Source: Pusillimonas sp. T7-7 (GTDB taxonomy: Bacteria; Pseudomonadota; Gammaproteobacteria; Burkholderiales; Burkholderiaceae_B). Taken from it: a DNA stretch of 64,000 nucleotides. Each line of letters opens with the position of its first letter. Position 1 is the stretch's first letter. Below the pieces are notes generated by a model. It saw only the letters and a list, made by a program, of their open reading frames with translations, was not told the origin of the DNA and did no database searches. The stretch covers positions 2,728,001-2,792,000 of the forward strand of contig NC_015458.1 in the NCBI RefSeq assembly GCF_000209655.1. Reading direction: 5' to 3'. The position numbers and the translations under genes are program-made. Below are positions 24,358 to 29,340 of this stretch, piece after piece.

Positions 24358-25278
24358 TCAGAACTTCTGCGACGAAGACATCATCGACGCGAGGCCGGCC
24401 TGCAGGTCGAAGGGGGCCTCCGCATCGAACAGTGCCCGCATATTTTCCAACGACGGCGATATAACGCGCCGTTGGCACAAAACACGCGGCATGCCCACCG
24501 CCACATCGGCAAGCGTGCGCCAAAAGATTCTCTTTAAACGCGCATGACCCAACTGCTTGCAGGTCCTGCGCCATGCAGGCCGCCATGGACGGCGCATCCA
24601 GGTGAGCCATATATCGTTGCGTATCCGTCGCCGCTCACGCAGACGGGAATCCTCCCGGCCAGAGGGAAAGCATCTGCCGACCACATCAGCCGCATACACA
24701 ACATGCCAGCCGCGCTCCTCCATATCCAAAGCCATCAATGCCTCTTCACCCCCCATGGAAAAAGGCGGCCAGTACCCTCCTGCATCAATGAAAGCGCGCG
24801 TCCGCATGACACACGCCCTCGCCATGAAATCAAGCAAGCGAGGCCCAGGCAAGCGCCCGCGCGGCAGGGGACTTTGCGCCATGTTCATACAGGCAGGACT
24901 CAGCTGTCGGGCAGGTCCGATCTGCATGCAGGCGCTCAGCACAGCGACATCAGGCGCCGCGTCCAGTGTTGCTGCGGCACGCTCCAGCGCACCCGGTTCC
25001 CAGCGGATATCGTCATCGCAAAATGCGATATAGGGAGTATGAGCGTAGGCAGCACCAATATTGCGAGCGGCTCCTCCCAGGTTGCGGCGCGCCCGGATCA
25101 GCATGACCGAAGGAAACTGCGCGGCAATCGCCGCTGATGTCCCGTCTGTCGACCCATTGTCAATGACGATAATCGGCCACCTGCCGGGCAAACGGCAAAT
25201 CGAGGCCAGCGCATTCAGAACAGGTATCCGCCTGTTGTGCGTCGTCAAAACGATCGATATGCGTCCTTCACTAGGCAT
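24358..25278 (-). CDS. GT2-family glycosyltransferase under a sigma-54-type promoter
   Basis: The 306-residue GT-A fold enzyme begins ISIVLTTHNRRIPVLNAL and has the nucleotide-sugar motifs VIDNGSTDGT and FCDDDIRW (the DXD-like metal site). A basic, tryptophan-rich C-terminal region (WLTWMRRPWRPAWRR) could associate with the membrane surface. The acceptor is unknown: no polysaccharide, flagellar or O-antigen genes are adjacent. It lies downstream of the sigma-54 response regulator with its own GG-N10-GC element 39 bases before the start. That makes it the clearest non-regulatory target of the module. Confidence 0.85.
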   Translation of the reverse strand: MPSEGRISIVLTTHNRRIPVLNALASICRLPGRWPIIVIDNGSTDGTSAAIAAQFPSVMLIRARRNLGGAARNIGAAYAHTPYIAFCDDDIRWEPGALERAAATLDAAPDVAVLSACMQIGPARQLSPACMNMAQSPLPRGRLPGPRLLDFMARACVMRTRAFIDAGGYWPPFSMGGEEALMALDMEERGWHVVYAADVVGRCFPSGREDSRLRERRRIRNDIWLTWMRRPWRPAWRRTCKQLGHARLKRIFWRTLADVAVGMPRVLCQRRVISPSLENMRALFDAEAPFDLQAGLASMMSSSQKF

Positions 25279-25316
25279 TGCGAAAACCCTGGCGAATTGA
25301 TGAATAGCCTGCTGCC

Positions 25317-25333
25317 AAGCATTTTCCGTGCCC
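25317..25333 (-). promoter_or_regulatory. Sigma-54 (-24/-12) promoter of the glycosyltransferase
   Basis: The minus strand reads GGGCACGGAAAATGCTT, with the essential GG-N10-GC spacing (GG at 25332-25331, GC at 25320-25319) and the full GGCACG half of the consensus TGGCACG-N4-TTGCW; the -12 half has ATGCT for TTGCT. A start about 12 bases downstream would leave a leader of about 30 bases before the ATG at 25278. Confidence 0.6.
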
Positions 25334-25353
25334 GGCAGCGTCAGGCCATGGCA

Positions 25354-26694
25354 TCAACGCGAAGAAACCCGGCCCGGTTCTTCGACGCCATACTCATCAA
25401 GTCGGTTGTATAGGGTTTTCAAGCTGATGCCCAGCATCTCTGCAGCCGCTTTCTTGGCTCCTCCGCACTGCTTCAAGGTGGCAAGAATGAGCTGCCTGTT
25501 GGCTTCAGCCAACGGGACCCCCACAGGAACCAGTATCTCGGAACCCCACCCCGCAGAGTGCGCCTCAAGCTCAAAAGAGTTGAAGTCCCCGGCAATGACG
25601 TCATCAGCAAGAATATAGCTGCGATAGACGTAGTTGCGCAGTTCACGTATATTGCCTGGCCAAGAGTAATCCCGCATGGCCTTCAATGCCTCAGGCGCAA
25701 ATATTTTTGTGGTGCCGCCCTCAAGATTGAGCTCATCCAGGAAATAGCCCGCCAGCAACAGCACATCATCCTCGCGCTCGCGCAAGGGTGGCAGCACCAG
25801 CGGAAAGACGCTAAGACGATGATAGAGATCTTCACGCAAGGCTCCACTGCTGACAGCCTGCTCGGGATCCCGATTAGTCGCCGCAATCACCCGGACATCG
25901 GCGGCGATTTCTTCGTGCGTACCAACACGCATAAAACGCCCCGTTTCCAGGACCCGCAACAAACGCACCTGCAGGTCCATGGACATTTCGGTGATTTCGT
26001 CCAGAAACAGCGTACCGCCGCAAGCACGCTCGAAATAGCCTTTGTGCTGTCGGTCGGCCCCTGTGAAGCTGCCTTTCTCATGACCGAACAGTTCGCTCTC
26101 GATCAGATTGGATGAAATCGCCCCGCAATTGATTGGCATGAACGGTTGTTGATGCCGCGCACTGGCTAAATGAATGGCCTCGGCCGCCAGCTCCTTGCCG
26201 GTACCGCTTTCTCCGACCAACAATACTGTTGCCTGCGTGGGAGCAACTTTTTCAATATGGGCGCACAGCAGCTGCATCGCGCGAGAATGCCCCACCATCT
26301 TGGAAAAGCAGTCTGGAGCGCCTGATGTGAGTCCCTGTGCTGGCGCCGTCTTGAGCTCCCCCAGCACGCCTCGCAAGCGCCTCAGGCTAACGGGCTTAAG
26401 CAAATAATCGACAGCCCCGCAACGCAGAGCCTCGATCGCGCTGTCGACACTTGAGTGCGCGGTCATGAATACAAGCTGCGTATTGGGTAAATCGGTATTC
26501 TTCCACAACTCAATGCCGTTGCCATCAGGCAGCTTCATGTCAAGCAGCATGACGTCAGGCTTCTGTCGATCGATCTGTATACGGGCTTGCCGGACATCTG
26601 CTGCCTGAGCAACCGTATAGCCGTCTTCAGCGGCAATCTCTGCAACCAGATCACGAACTGCGAGGTCGTCCTCAACGACCAGTAGATGCGGCAT
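25354..26694 (-). CDS. NtrC-family sigma-54 response regulator
   Basis: The 446-residue activator has a receiver domain (residues 1-115; acidic pocket VVEDD, phospho-acceptor Asp52 in LLDMKLPDG, Thr78, Lys100). The AAA+ domain has Walker A GESGTGKE at 161-168, the sigma-54 contact loop GSFTGA at 208-213 and GGTLFLDE Walker B. A Fis-type helix-turn-helix (ILATLKQCGGAKKAAAEML) is followed by LKTLYNRLDEYG. The start at 26694 has AGGGGA upstream. No histidine kinase gene is adjacent, so its partner is elsewhere. It is divergent from a second activator. Confidence 0.93.
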   Translation of the reverse strand: MPHLLVVEDDLAVRDLVAEIAAEDGYTVAQAADVRQARIQIDRQKPDVMLLDMKLPDGNGIELWKNTDLPNTQLVFMTAHSSVDSAIEALRCGAVDYLLKPVSLRRLRGVLGELKTAPAQGLTSGAPDCFSKMVGHSRAMQLLCAHIEKVAPTQATVLLVGESGTGKELAAEAIHLASARHQQPFMPINCGAISSNLIESELFGHEKGSFTGADRQHKGYFERACGGTLFLDEITEMSMDLQVRLLRVLETGRFMRVGTHEEIAADVRVIAATNRDPEQAVSSGALREDLYHRLSVFPLVLPPLREREDDVLLLAGYFLDELNLEGGTTKIFAPEALKAMRDYSWPGNIRELRNYVYRSYILADDVIAGDFNSFELEAHSAGWGSEILVPVGVPLAEANRQLILATLKQCGGAKKAAAEMLGISLKTLYNRLDEYGVEEPGRVSSR

Positions 26695-26844
26695 TAACGT
26701 CCCCTGTTGCTTGCGTTCAGACTTCCGATAACACTCACCCTTATCGTAGCCGTAAACGTAAAAAGGACCAGTTACCAAGCTTGTTTTTTGCAACGAAAAA
26801 AGTCTGTCATGAGCGCAAACGCATTTCATATTAGACTATGAAAA

Positions 26845-27807
26845 ATGAAGAAATCCACCCGTATTCTGGGCCGCTCTTCTTTGGCGTTCCAGCTTGCCCG
26901 CTCCATCGTCAAGGCGGCCCCCACTGATGCCAGTGTCCTGCTTATAGGTGAAAGCGGCACGGGCAAAGAGATCGTCGCACGCGCAATCCATAATCGAAGC
27001 CGGCGGCGCAAAGCACCTTTCGTCGCCATCAATTGCGGCGCCATCACGGCCACGCTGGCTGAAAGTGAATTGTTTGGACACGAGAAAGGCAGTTTTACCA
27101 GCGCCTCTTCCACAACCCAGGGCTGCTTCGAGCAAGCGCATAATGGCACGCTGTTTCTGGACGAAATCACTGAAATGCCGCTGGCGATGCAAGTCCAGCT
27201 ATTGCGTATCCTTGAATCCGGCCAGTACCACCGCGTGGGTGGCTCCAAACAGCTCAAGGTCAATGTCCGCATCATCGCCGCCACCAACCGCGACCCCAAA
27301 CATGCCGTAATAAGTGGCAATTTCCGCTCAGATCTGCTTTATCGGCTGGCCGTTTTTCCAGTATGGATTCCGCCGCTGCGCGAGCGCAAGAAAGACATTG
27401 TTTATTTTGCGCAACGCTTCGTCGACGAACTCAATGAACAGGAAAAAACCCAGAAAACATTGTCTCCATCAGCGGCCAAAGTACTCGAATCACATAACTG
27501 GCCCGGTAATATTCGTGAACTCAAGAATGTCATTACTCGTGCCCATATCCTGTCGGATGACATTCTTGAAATCCCTCCCGTTGGCGCCGTATCGCGCAGC
27601 AAGAAGCCCGAAACGCTCCAGGGAGTGCTCAAGATTCCAATCGGCACCTCCCTGTCGGGTGCGCAACACGCCCTCATTATGGCCACCTTGGACCATTACC
27701 AAGGAGACAAACGCCGTACGGCCCTCGCCTTAGGCATCAGTCCAAAAACGCTCTATAACCGTCTTACCCAACTTCGCAAGGGCGACAGCAGCCACCCCAC
27801 CGACTGA
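26845..27807 (+). CDS. Sigma-54 activator without sensory domain, variant GAFTGA loop
   Basis: The 320-residue protein is an AAA+ domain plus Fis-type helix-turn-helix, with no receiver, GAF or PAS domain (PspF/HrpR-like layout). Walker A is GESGTGKE (35-42), Walker B GTLFLDE (101-107), and PPLRERKKDI and NWPGNIRELKN are intact. The sigma-54 contact loop at 82-87 reads GSFTSA: the conserved second glycine is serine, whereas the neighbouring activator keeps GSFTGA. It may be a weakened or specialised activator. It diverges from the response regulator and precedes rpoN by 162 bases. Confidence 0.9.
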   Translation: MKKSTRILGRSSLAFQLARSIVKAAPTDASVLLIGESGTGKEIVARAIHNRSRRRKAPFVAINCGAITATLAESELFGHEKGSFTSASSTTQGCFEQAHNGTLFLDEITEMPLAMQVQLLRILESGQYHRVGGSKQLKVNVRIIAATNRDPKHAVISGNFRSDLLYRLAVFPVWIPPLRERKKDIVYFAQRFVDELNEQEKTQKTLSPSAAKVLESHNWPGNIRELKNVITRAHILSDDILEIPPVGAVSRSKKPETLQGVLKIPIGTSLSGAQHALIMATLDHYQGDKRRTALALGISPKTLYNRLTQLRKGDSSHPTD

Positions 27808-27858
27808 GTCATGGCACTTCTTACACCTGTCGGTAATTTATAAAGCCCTGCATCGTCA

Positions 27859-27874
27859 CGGCACGGCCCTTGCT
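27859..27874 (+). promoter_or_regulatory. Upstream sigma-54 element before rpoN
   Basis: CGGCACGGCCCTTGCT has GG-N10-GC spacing (GG 27860-27861, GC 27872-27873) and matches TGGCACG-N4-TTGCW except at its first base. It is the first of two same-strand -24/-12 elements 42 bases apart (about four helical turns) ahead of rpoN. Confidence 0.6.
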
Positions 27875-27899
27875 GCTATAGAGGAAGTCCTTATAAAGG

Positions 27900-27916
27900 C
27901 TGGCACCGCTTTTGCT
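27900..27916 (+). promoter_or_regulatory. Downstream sigma-54 element before rpoN
   Basis: CTGGCACCGCTTTTGCT matches the consensus YTGGCACGrN3TTGCW at all key bases (GG 27902-27903, GC 27914-27915, spacing 10). Transcription would start near 27927 and give a leader of about 43 bases before the GTG. This suggests the sigma factor controls its own gene. Confidence 0.65.
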
Positions 27917-27969
27917 TGACTCTATCCAAGTACCCAATAAAAAGGCCACTTTGATTGAGGAGCAAACCA

Positions 27970-29340
27970 GTGACACAGATACGCGTTGAACAACAGGCCC
28001 GCCAACAACTTTCCCTGACGCCCAAGCAGCAGCAATCCGTCAAACTGCTGCAGATGTCAACACTTGAGTTCAGCCAAGAAATCAGTGCCGCCATGGCCAA
28101 CAACCCTTTTCTTGAGGAGCCGGAAGAGAGTGTAGACGCGCCACCTGCCCAACAGACCCTGCCTGAAAAAACACTTTCTTCCTATCCGGGCGACTATCCG
28201 GGCCGAGGCAATAACGATCAAGCCCATAGCGACGTGGGGGAATGGGCCCGAGGCGGCGCCTCTATGCAAGATGCCCTGCTGGCCGACCTATGCAGCTATC
28301 CTCTGAACGAACGCGACCGGGCGCTGGCGGAGCATATCATCGAAGCCCTGGACGATGACGGCTATCTGCGTGCGCCATTTTCGGAACTGGCTGGTACCGA
28401 GGCGTTTGCTCACGCTCCAAGCAACGACGAGTGGGAAATCGCCCTGCATCTTGTACAGCAGCTGGGCACGCCCGGCTTGGGCGCGCGCGACCTGAAGGAA
28501 TGCATGATTCTGCAGCTCAACGCGTTGCCCTCCACAACAGACTGCGGGAAGCTGGCCCTGGGTATTATTTTGGATCACCTGGATACATTGGCGCGCGGGG
28601 ACTATGCCGGCCTGGCCCGCAGCCTACACTGCTCGAAAGACGACATACAGGCCGCATGCTCGCTGATACGCAGCCTTGACCCCCACCCCGGCCGAAGCTA
28701 TAGCCCGGTCGATCCGTCCACCTTCATTATTCCCGATGTCACGGTTCGCAAGGTCGGCATGCACTGGACAGCCGTATCGAATAAGGACGCCATACCACAG
28801 GCCCGGCTCAATGCCACCTATGCCCGCTTGTTCCGCGGCACGCGCTATAACGAACGCAGCCTGATGGCCCAAGAGCTGCAGGAAGCCCGGTGGCTGCTGC
28901 GCAGCCTTGAGCAACGCAGCAACACCATAGAACGCGTGGCGCAGGCCATCGTCGCACGCCAACAGACGTTTTTCGACTACGGCGAGATCGCGCTGCGGCC
29001 CCTCATGCTCAGCGAAGTCGCCGATGAGCTGGGCATGCACGAGTCCACCGTCTCACGTGCAACCAGCCATAAATATCTGGCATCGCCTCGCGGCATCTTC
29101 GAGTTCAAGCACTTTTTTTCACGCGAGCTGCCCACCCGATCGGGCGGCACATGTTCGGCCGGCGCCGTGCGGGCGCTGATACAGGAAATGATTGATGACG
29201 AGGACCCCAAGTCACCACTTTCCGACGTCATACTGACACACAAGCTTGAGCATGAAGGGATCGTCGTGGCACGCCGGACCGTGTCCAAATACCGGGCCCA
29301 GATCAAAATCCCCCCTGCGGAACTGCGCCGTACCCTTTGA
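27970..29340 (+). CDS. rpoN: RNA polymerase sigma-54 factor, apparent module-specific copy
   Basis: The 456-residue sigma-54 has region I with [20 protein letters not shown], a shortened acidic region II, the core-binding domain, the helix-turn-helix segment [15 protein letters not shown] with [13 protein letters not shown], and the RpoN box [10 protein letters not shown] (434-443). The GTG at 27970 is chosen because GAGGAG lies 7 bases before it. Housekeeping rpoN normally sits with lptB and hpf; here the neighbours are two activators, so I suspect a second, specialised copy. Two -24/-12 elements upstream suggest autoregulation. That it is a paralogue is inferred from context only. Confidence 0.93.

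Follow-up and report, generated by a model that had tools for sequence, protein, structure and literature searches.

The window analysed here, a stretch of 64,000 nucleotides from the Pusillimonas sp. T7-7 genome (G000:C1:2728001-2792000; genome 3.92 Mb, two contigs), carries a block in which the gene for a second sigma-54 factor, rpoN2, is grouped with the genes for two enhancer-binding proteins and one family 2 glycosyltransferase (GT2). One of the two enhancer-binding proteins is a response regulator (RR), and the other, hereafter called EBP, is a small single-domain protein. The genes and the elements between them are given below in window positions.

24358-25278, minus strand: gene for the GT2-family glycosyltransferase (Pfam Glycos_transf_2), a predicted local target of RpoN2
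25317..25333 (match at 25318), minus strand: -24/-12 element of GT2, GGGCACGGAAAATGCT / GGGCACGGAAAATGCTT, with a base other than T at -26
25354-26694, minus strand: gene for RR, with receiver (REC), AAA+ and HTH_8 (Fis-type) domains and the loop GSFTGA (domain scan)
26845-27807, plus strand: gene for EBP, with AAA+ and HTH_8 domains, no N-terminal domain and the loop GSFTSA (domain scan)
27820..27837, plus strand: palindrome CTTAC-N8-GTAAT, conserved in many relatives, the likely enhancer site of the rpoN2 promoter
27859..27874, plus strand: second -24/-12-like element before rpoN2, CGGCACGGCCCTTGCT, of the class without T at -26 (V class)
27901..27917, plus strand: conserved -24/-12 element of rpoN2, TGGCACCGCTTTTGCT / TGGCACCGCTTTTGCTT, with T at -26
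27970 (GTG)-29340, plus strand: rpoN2, second sigma-54 with AID, core-binding (CBD) and DNA-binding (DBD) domains; the open reading frame is open from 27955

All four genes lie where a preliminary description of the window had placed them, and their domains were confirmed. The EBP gene is divergent from the RR gene. An AAA+ domain with a GAFTGA-type loop is present in RR (GSFTGA), while the EBP loop departs from it at the second glycine; this loop is the part that contacts sigma-54. The positions of RR that are conserved in the alignment include D9, D52, T78 and K100. In the whole genome, PF00158 matched ten stretches, six of them strongly (165-241 bits), and RR and EBP are two of these six. 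For GT2, only general GT2 families scored above the cut-off and no NCBIfam model reached it; nothing that we saw in the sequence would tie its product to the cell surface. In agreement with the preliminary description, no kinase gene was found among the listed neighbours of the block, a list that was read by eye without a domain scan.

RpoN2 and its conserved module

The preliminary description had taken rpoN2 for an extra, dedicated copy, and one further rpoN gene (rpoN1) is indeed present in the genome, at G000:C1:3243758. The six scanned neighbours of rpoN1 are leuA-like, LacI-type, phosphoesterase, BFD, ferritin-like and RF3-like genes; neither lptB nor hpf was found among these six, and the lptB-hpf setting expected for a housekeeping rpoN is not seen here. 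RpoN2 matched PF00309, PF04963 and PF04552 (AID, core-binding and DNA-binding domains), each above the cut-off. The RpoN2 sequences form one clade (18/18 rows, support 100/100) in a tree built from 74 RpoN rows; single sequences from two other families (G056 and G040) stand at its base. This clade, together with the conserved module described below, supports the view of a dedicated second sigma-54.

The canonical RpoN box is ARRTVAKYRE, which is also the common form in our alignment. The box of the window's RpoN2 departs from it, and the same type is found throughout the 18-member clade: ARRTVSKYR in 17 members and ARRTVTKYR in the remaining one, followed by A, G, S or T and never by E (0/18). 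Of the 57 other readable RpoN rows, all but G017 and G056 have A at the corresponding box position (55/57). As read from these sequences, the RpoN2 box is a variant and not a lost box, and by its three domains the protein is still a sigma-54. Because the RpoN domain contacts the -24 element, according to PMC5505868, an altered -24 preference of the box-variant RpoN2 is plausible.

The module was compared in 61 genomes, namely the window's own and 60 relatives, of which 37 (own included) belong to its family. Within the family, 18 genomes have two rpoN copies, 14 have one and 5 have none. Searches with EBP gave a match of 3.2e-90 or better in all 18 two-rpoN genomes, and in each of these a separate, longer RR-type frame was found at 1.2e-82 or better (3.2e-90 or better in 17/18; the frame of G014 is short, 376 aa), compared with a best match of 1.6e-69 in the 14 one-rpoN genomes. 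The RR-type frame co-occurs with the second rpoN in 18/18 two-rpoN versus 0/14 one-rpoN family genomes. The small EBP, by a reading by eye, is present in 14 of the 18 and missing from G018, G019, G031 and G035. RpoN2 is kept in three of the four sampled species of the window's genus. Outside the family, G057 (locus L067) has an RR/EBP pair but one rpoN, a combination that could help to tell what RR does from what RpoN2 does.

Promoters with and without T at -26

With up to two mismatches allowed, the window contains 15 matches to the -24/-12 pattern versus 19.1 expected, which is no more than chance; the elements that the preliminary description had reported before GT2 and rpoN are judged to be real because they are conserved in relatives. 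The element at 27901 aligned in 11/11 rpoN2 upstreams compared, and the GT2 element (GGYACG-N4-NTGCT) in 13/13 upstreams compared; in the scoring of 18 distinct GT2 upstreams, three (L071, L073 and L127) had it in weak form or not at all. The element at 27859 is not kept in the congeneric loci L055 and L058. A weight matrix made from the sigma-54 consensus was also run over 420 bases around each start, identical stretches being used once. At 13 bits or more, it found elements before 21/24 rpoN2 genes, 14/18 GlgA-like genes that neighbour the module in relatives and 5/18 GT2 genes; at 11 bits or more, before 11/18 GT2 genes and 0/65 RR/EBP genes. T stands at -26 in 20/21 rpoN2 elements, while the target-type elements mostly have A, C or G there, though the matrix rewards T. 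The rpoN2 gene itself is probably under sigma-54 control.

Two promoter classes were then counted across the 61 genomes: a V class, VGGCAYR-N4-TTGCT (no T at -26), and a T class, TGGCAYR-N4-TTGCW, the expected number being that of the same half-sites at spacings N5-7 divided by three. In the two-rpoN family genomes, 432 V-class sites were observed versus 203.3 expected (above expectation in 16/18), compared with 93 versus 122.3 in the one-rpoN genomes (above in 6/14), 33 versus 27.3 in those with no rpoN (above in 3/5) and 116 versus 176.7 in the 24 genomes from other families of the order (above in 3/24). The T class, summed for the family genomes, gave 218 versus 82.3, 184 versus 77.0 and 28 versus 23.7 with two, one and no rpoN, respectively. 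Between two- and one-rpoN genomes, the Mann-Whitney test gave p=2.7e-5 for V and p=0.91 for T. These counts indicate that the T-class excess tracks any rpoN, whereas the V-class excess tracks RpoN2.

The same picture was obtained close to the module and along the tree. Near the modules (39 loci, 746,568 bases), 56 V sites were found at N4 and 1-4 at each other spacing from N1 to N8. In the RpoN1 part of the tree, the one-rpoN genomes are scattered among the two-rpoN ones, and in four contrasts chosen by eye (G032/G035; G011/G006, G008, G012, G018; G027/the clade of G021, G026 and others; G001/G000, G002, G003) the one-rpoN member has the lower V ratio every time. A control with the reversed pattern was too weak, since genomes without rpoN also exceeded it, and the spacing control was used instead. 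The idea of a strict mutual exclusion of RpoN2 and T-class sites was dropped because of L153, L231 and L234.

The rpoN2 element is preceded, at a distance of about 70-85 or 120-175 bases, by a palindrome of the form CTTAC-N8-GTAAG, exact or near-exact in many, not all, loci. Its 4+4 core was exact in 12 and one-off in 2 of 31 T-class upstreams, where shuffles expect 0.1 and 1.6. The core was exact in 2/54 neighbourhood V-class upstreams, both (L056, L057) beside an rpoN2 gene, and among the 13 own-genome upstreams considered below the palindrome was found at rpoN2 only. We dropped the assumption that it is tied to the small EBP alone, since some genomes with EBP have a poor copy of it or none, and one genome without EBP has the core form.

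Predicted targets and gene neighbours

The window's own genome has 22 V sites, 13 of which are placed 42-111 nt before a likely gene start, the starts being chosen by eye. The families encoded after these 13 sites are PRC-barrel (two), glycine-zipper lipoprotein-like, DUF421, BON, LigD_Prim-Pol, entericidin, Sod_Cu, dodecin and GFA; the remaining three are rpoN2 itself and two genes without a family (one scanned, one not). At least five of the other nine V sites lie within long reading frames and are probably chance matches. A divergent pair of V sites 37 bases apart (L171 and L172, G000:C1:226202-226254) is shared by a gene of PRC-barrel type and one of glycine-zipper lipoprotein-like type. 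In relatives, V sites near the modules precede genes of GlgA-like, GlgE-like, CsbD, Ku, GH15/trehalase-like, DUF421, PRC, BON, SDR and erythromycin-esterase-like types, as judged in part from a domain scan of ten proteins, nine of them from relatives. T-class sites number 16 in the window's genome; in the subset inspected, some precede a hemerythrin-type gene (by a strong enhancer-binding protein gene), an NMT1-like substrate-binding protein gene and a DUF1488 gene, and one precedes a gene for a 192-aa protein (L153).

The neighbourhood was compared in 46 loci (the window and 45 loci of relatives, some being the same genome from two collections and some short contigs), and neighbour families were assigned from one or two representatives per cluster. 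GT2 was found in 22 of these loci, GlgA-like (GT5) in 21, GlgE-like in 22; a long gene of the alpha-amylase family occurs in 14 and one for a carbamoyltransferase in 11. On the opposite flank, some loci carry BON, GT4, SDR, HAD, GT2/GT9 and epimerase genes. In relatives, GT2 orthologues adjoin RR, and many relatives also have GlgA/GlgE-like, alpha-amylase-family and BON/PRC genes next to the block, together with a sugar cluster. Some neighbour genes appear, from their domains, to be of trehalose type. The same-genus loci L055 and L058 look like the window in gene set. No alpha-amylase-family match (0) was found in the window's genome, in a search whose control family matched in 13/14 genomes, which indicates that the GlgE part was lost here while the regulators and GT2 were kept.

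The secondary replicons of Burkholderia repeat the module, the gene types and the C at -26. In searches of the plasmid collection with RR and rpoN, at least five Burkholderia records among the best 25 rows of each carry relatives of both RR (49-51%) and rpoN (44-45%); the Burkholderia records matching RR number 63, versus 6 for rpoN. In B. multivorans, the EBP and RR genes point away from each other, and a GT2-like gene, a kinase, a carbamoyltransferase-type sugar cluster and BON genes lie nearby; the GT2-like protein beside RR is 41% identical to the window's GT2, and rpoN2 lies among DUF892, DUF3008, PRC, CBS, Ku and LigD genes. In B. pyrrocinia, RR is followed by a hybrid PAS histidine kinase. 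The Burkholderia RpoN2 box is ARRTVTKYRQ. At 15 sites upstream of annotated genes (L231, L233, L234), the base at -26 is C in 11, T in 2, A in 1 and G in 1, where two of the sites (both C) lie inside the rpoN2 end and several are counterparts in two species. With L235 added, these loci contain 19 sites at spacing 4 and 0-3 at other spacings.

A proposed stress-type pathway, its rivals and known systems

Taking the two rpoN genes, the module and the promoter counts together, we consider it likely that this block controls a specialised Burkholderiales sigma-54 pathway, in which RpoN2 and RR would drive a general-stress-type regulon through V-class promoters. Which sigma factor reads which promoter, and with which activator, signal and physiological role, we infer as follows. 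A signal would activate RR through phosphorylation by an unlinked kinase; RR is an orphan here, and in two Burkholderia replicons a hybrid kinase is found next to it or close by. Either RR or the small EBP, or both, would bind CTTAC-N8-GTAAG and, with RpoN1 at the promoter with T at -26, switch on rpoN2. RpoN2, with its altered RpoN box, would be freed from the need for T at -26 and, with RR as activator, transcribe VGGCAYR-N4-TTGCT promoters before stress-protection genes. In the window's species, the regulon would comprise the local GT2 gene together with BON, PRC-barrel, glycine-zipper, entericidin, dodecin, SodC and LigD-type genes; CsbD, Ku and GlgA/GlgE-like alpha-glucan genes would join it in relatives. 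The small EBP may be accessory, perhaps a hetero-oligomer partner of RR as FleT is for FleQ in the available text of PMC11999139, and such a role would be likelier still in the window's genus, with its loop GSFTSA or GSFTDA. A wider proposal, to which we give slightly less than even chances, is that in Alcaligenaceae/Burkholderia a duplicated sigma-54 changed its -24 recognition (T at -26 lost; box A to S/T, E lost) and became a general-stress sigma factor with one response-regulator activator.

Several observations weigh against this stress pathway. Within the window's own genus, V sites are only weakly in excess (61 versus 46.3 in three genomes; G003, 16 versus 17.3), G012 is below the V control in spite of having RpoN2 (11 versus 18.0), and some one-rpoN genomes reach V ratios of 1.2-1.4 (G036, 6 versus 4.3). 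T at -26 occurs in 2/13 aligned GT2 elements and in 2/15 of the Burkholderia sites; moreover, the 192-aa protein of L153 (1554-2132), which has a weak, sub-cut-off glycine-zipper match and by eye resembles a V-class gene of L072, has a promoter-like site with T at -26, and the split between the two classes is accordingly not strict. The gene starts after the 13 own-genome sites were picked by eye with no control set treated alike, and two of the 13 (L175, L183) also lie within a longer reading frame. The EBP loop is GSFTSA in the window and GSFTDA in its congeners (L055 7069-8091, L058 10177-11211), while the other 13/16 aligned are G[SA]FTGA. Finally, no usable enhancer motif common to the V-class promoters was found by palindrome counts or an expectation-maximisation (EM) search, the activator there thus being putative. 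Exact palindromes showed a slight excess at most, consisting of GC-rich 4-mers (best 8 versus 4-6 in shuffles), and the EM motifs (75.6 versus 16.3; 111.4 versus 44.0, for one shuffled control) were set aside as being of low information, present in nearly all sequences and partly sigma-54-like, the shuffle not keeping dinucleotides.

The weak V excess and the loop forms GSFTSA/GSFTDA, confined to the window's genus among the 16 aligned, also speak, with the missing alpha-amylase-family gene, for another explanation: that RpoN2 is redundant or decaying with the same specificity as RpoN1, and that the module in this genus is a relic after loss of the GlgE pathway. We regard this as rather improbable, given that RpoN2 is intact in all three domains and retained in most of the sampled congeneric species, that the GT2 and rpoN2 promoters are conserved, that V sites precede stress-type genes in the window's genome and that the V excess tracks RpoN2 in other genera. 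It is about as unlikely that the excess is due to RR/EBP or to base composition, with RpoN1 reading V-class promoters wherever RR is present. RR and RpoN2 are inseparable in the family sample, where they co-occur without exception; on the other hand, T-class ratios are alike in the two- and one-rpoN groups, the spacing control allows for composition, the RpoN box is changed in the same clade, and G057, with RR, EBP and one rpoN, shows no V excess (2 versus 4.7; a single case). The probabilities that we attach to the stress pathway and to its rivals are not mutually exclusive.

The preliminary description had viewed the block as a self-contained circuit that switches on surface glycosylation through GT2. 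Its dedicated sigma-54 and its conserved GT2 and rpoN elements were borne out, and comparison across relatives found the regulators conserved with the second rpoN; self-containment is not supported, as the predicted targets are scattered over the chromosome. A local glycosylation circuit would fit the GT2 gene adjacent to the regulators, with its conserved sigma-54 element, and the other glycosyltransferases that adjoin the module in relatives. We nevertheless hold it to be very unlikely, as the predicted targets in the window's genome are mostly small stress-type proteins and the commonest neighbours in relatives are GlgA-, GlgE-like and other alpha-amylase-family genes, with BON/PRC genes besides; GlgA and GlgE families are cytoplasmic alpha-glucan enzymes. 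The finding is larger than that description had it, and it points to a stress regulon and not to surface sugars.

General stress responses under RpoS, SigB or EcfG target trehalose, CsbD, BON, dodecin, entericidin and Ku/LigD genes. The target types predicted here are similar; unlike those responses, the sigma factor is a sigma-54, which depends on an activator driven by ATP. If the stress pathway holds, sigma-54 would be linked to alpha-glucan/trehalose, Ku/LigD and BON/PRC/dodecin gene types that elsewhere are under those three factors, and a stress regulon would be fully off without ATP-driven activation, with one promoter position keeping it apart from the cell's other sigma-54 regulon. 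It would also provide a concrete rule for separating two sigma-54 factors in one cell, namely the base at -26 plus two RpoN-box residues. In the literature, of which few subscription papers were reached, we found no description of the module, of the promoter class or of a sigma-54-run general stress regulon in Alcaligenaceae.

For paralogous sigma-54 factors separated by promoter sequence, the nearest published example that we found is Cereibacter (Rhodobacter) sphaeroides, in which, according to the available text of PMC11999139, RpoN1 works with NifA, RpoN2 with FleQ/FleT and RpoN3 with AprX. As proposed here, each paralogue has a promoter set and a cognate enhancer-binding protein of its own, FleT/FleQ likewise pair two enhancer-binding proteins, and the second rpoN forms a lineage of its own, in our case in the window's family. 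The discriminating position in that text is -11, against the -26 proposed here, and RpoN1 and RpoN2 act there on nif and flagellar genes, whereas the targets predicted here are of stress type. In B. pseudomallei, a second sigma-54 on chromosome 2, RpoN2, is reported to be needed for katE expression late in growth (PMC4745423), which speaks for the stress pathway, and RpoN2 (BPSS2218) and KatE drop together in a trigger-factor mutant (available part of PMC13192269). The likeness is by description, and the consulted text of PMC4745423 gives no separate promoter class, response regulator or wider regulon. The rpoN1/rpoN2 pairs of Ralstonia solanacearum and Xanthomonas are likewise two sigma-54 genes with partly different roles, as far as the accessible accounts go; these roles, unlike here, are motility, virulence and metabolism, and the comparison is by description. 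The pathway proposed here, if true, would also explain what the second rpoN on Burkholderia secondary replicons does.

Some neighbourhoods contain further features of their own. Beside the module, L057 (619-10036), L127 (5-8889) and L233 (5241-12566) carry a cluster of SDR, HAD, GT9, carbamoyltransferase and GT2/GT9-type genes, with an epimerase in some; this SDR-HAD-GT9-carbamoyltransferase cluster is conserved between Alcaligenaceae and B. multivorans, and its product may be a glycan or glycoside that is carbamoylated. In L070 (5196-8915), a large frame beside the RR-type gene is kinase-like and resembles the hybrid histidine kinase beside the Burkholderia RR.

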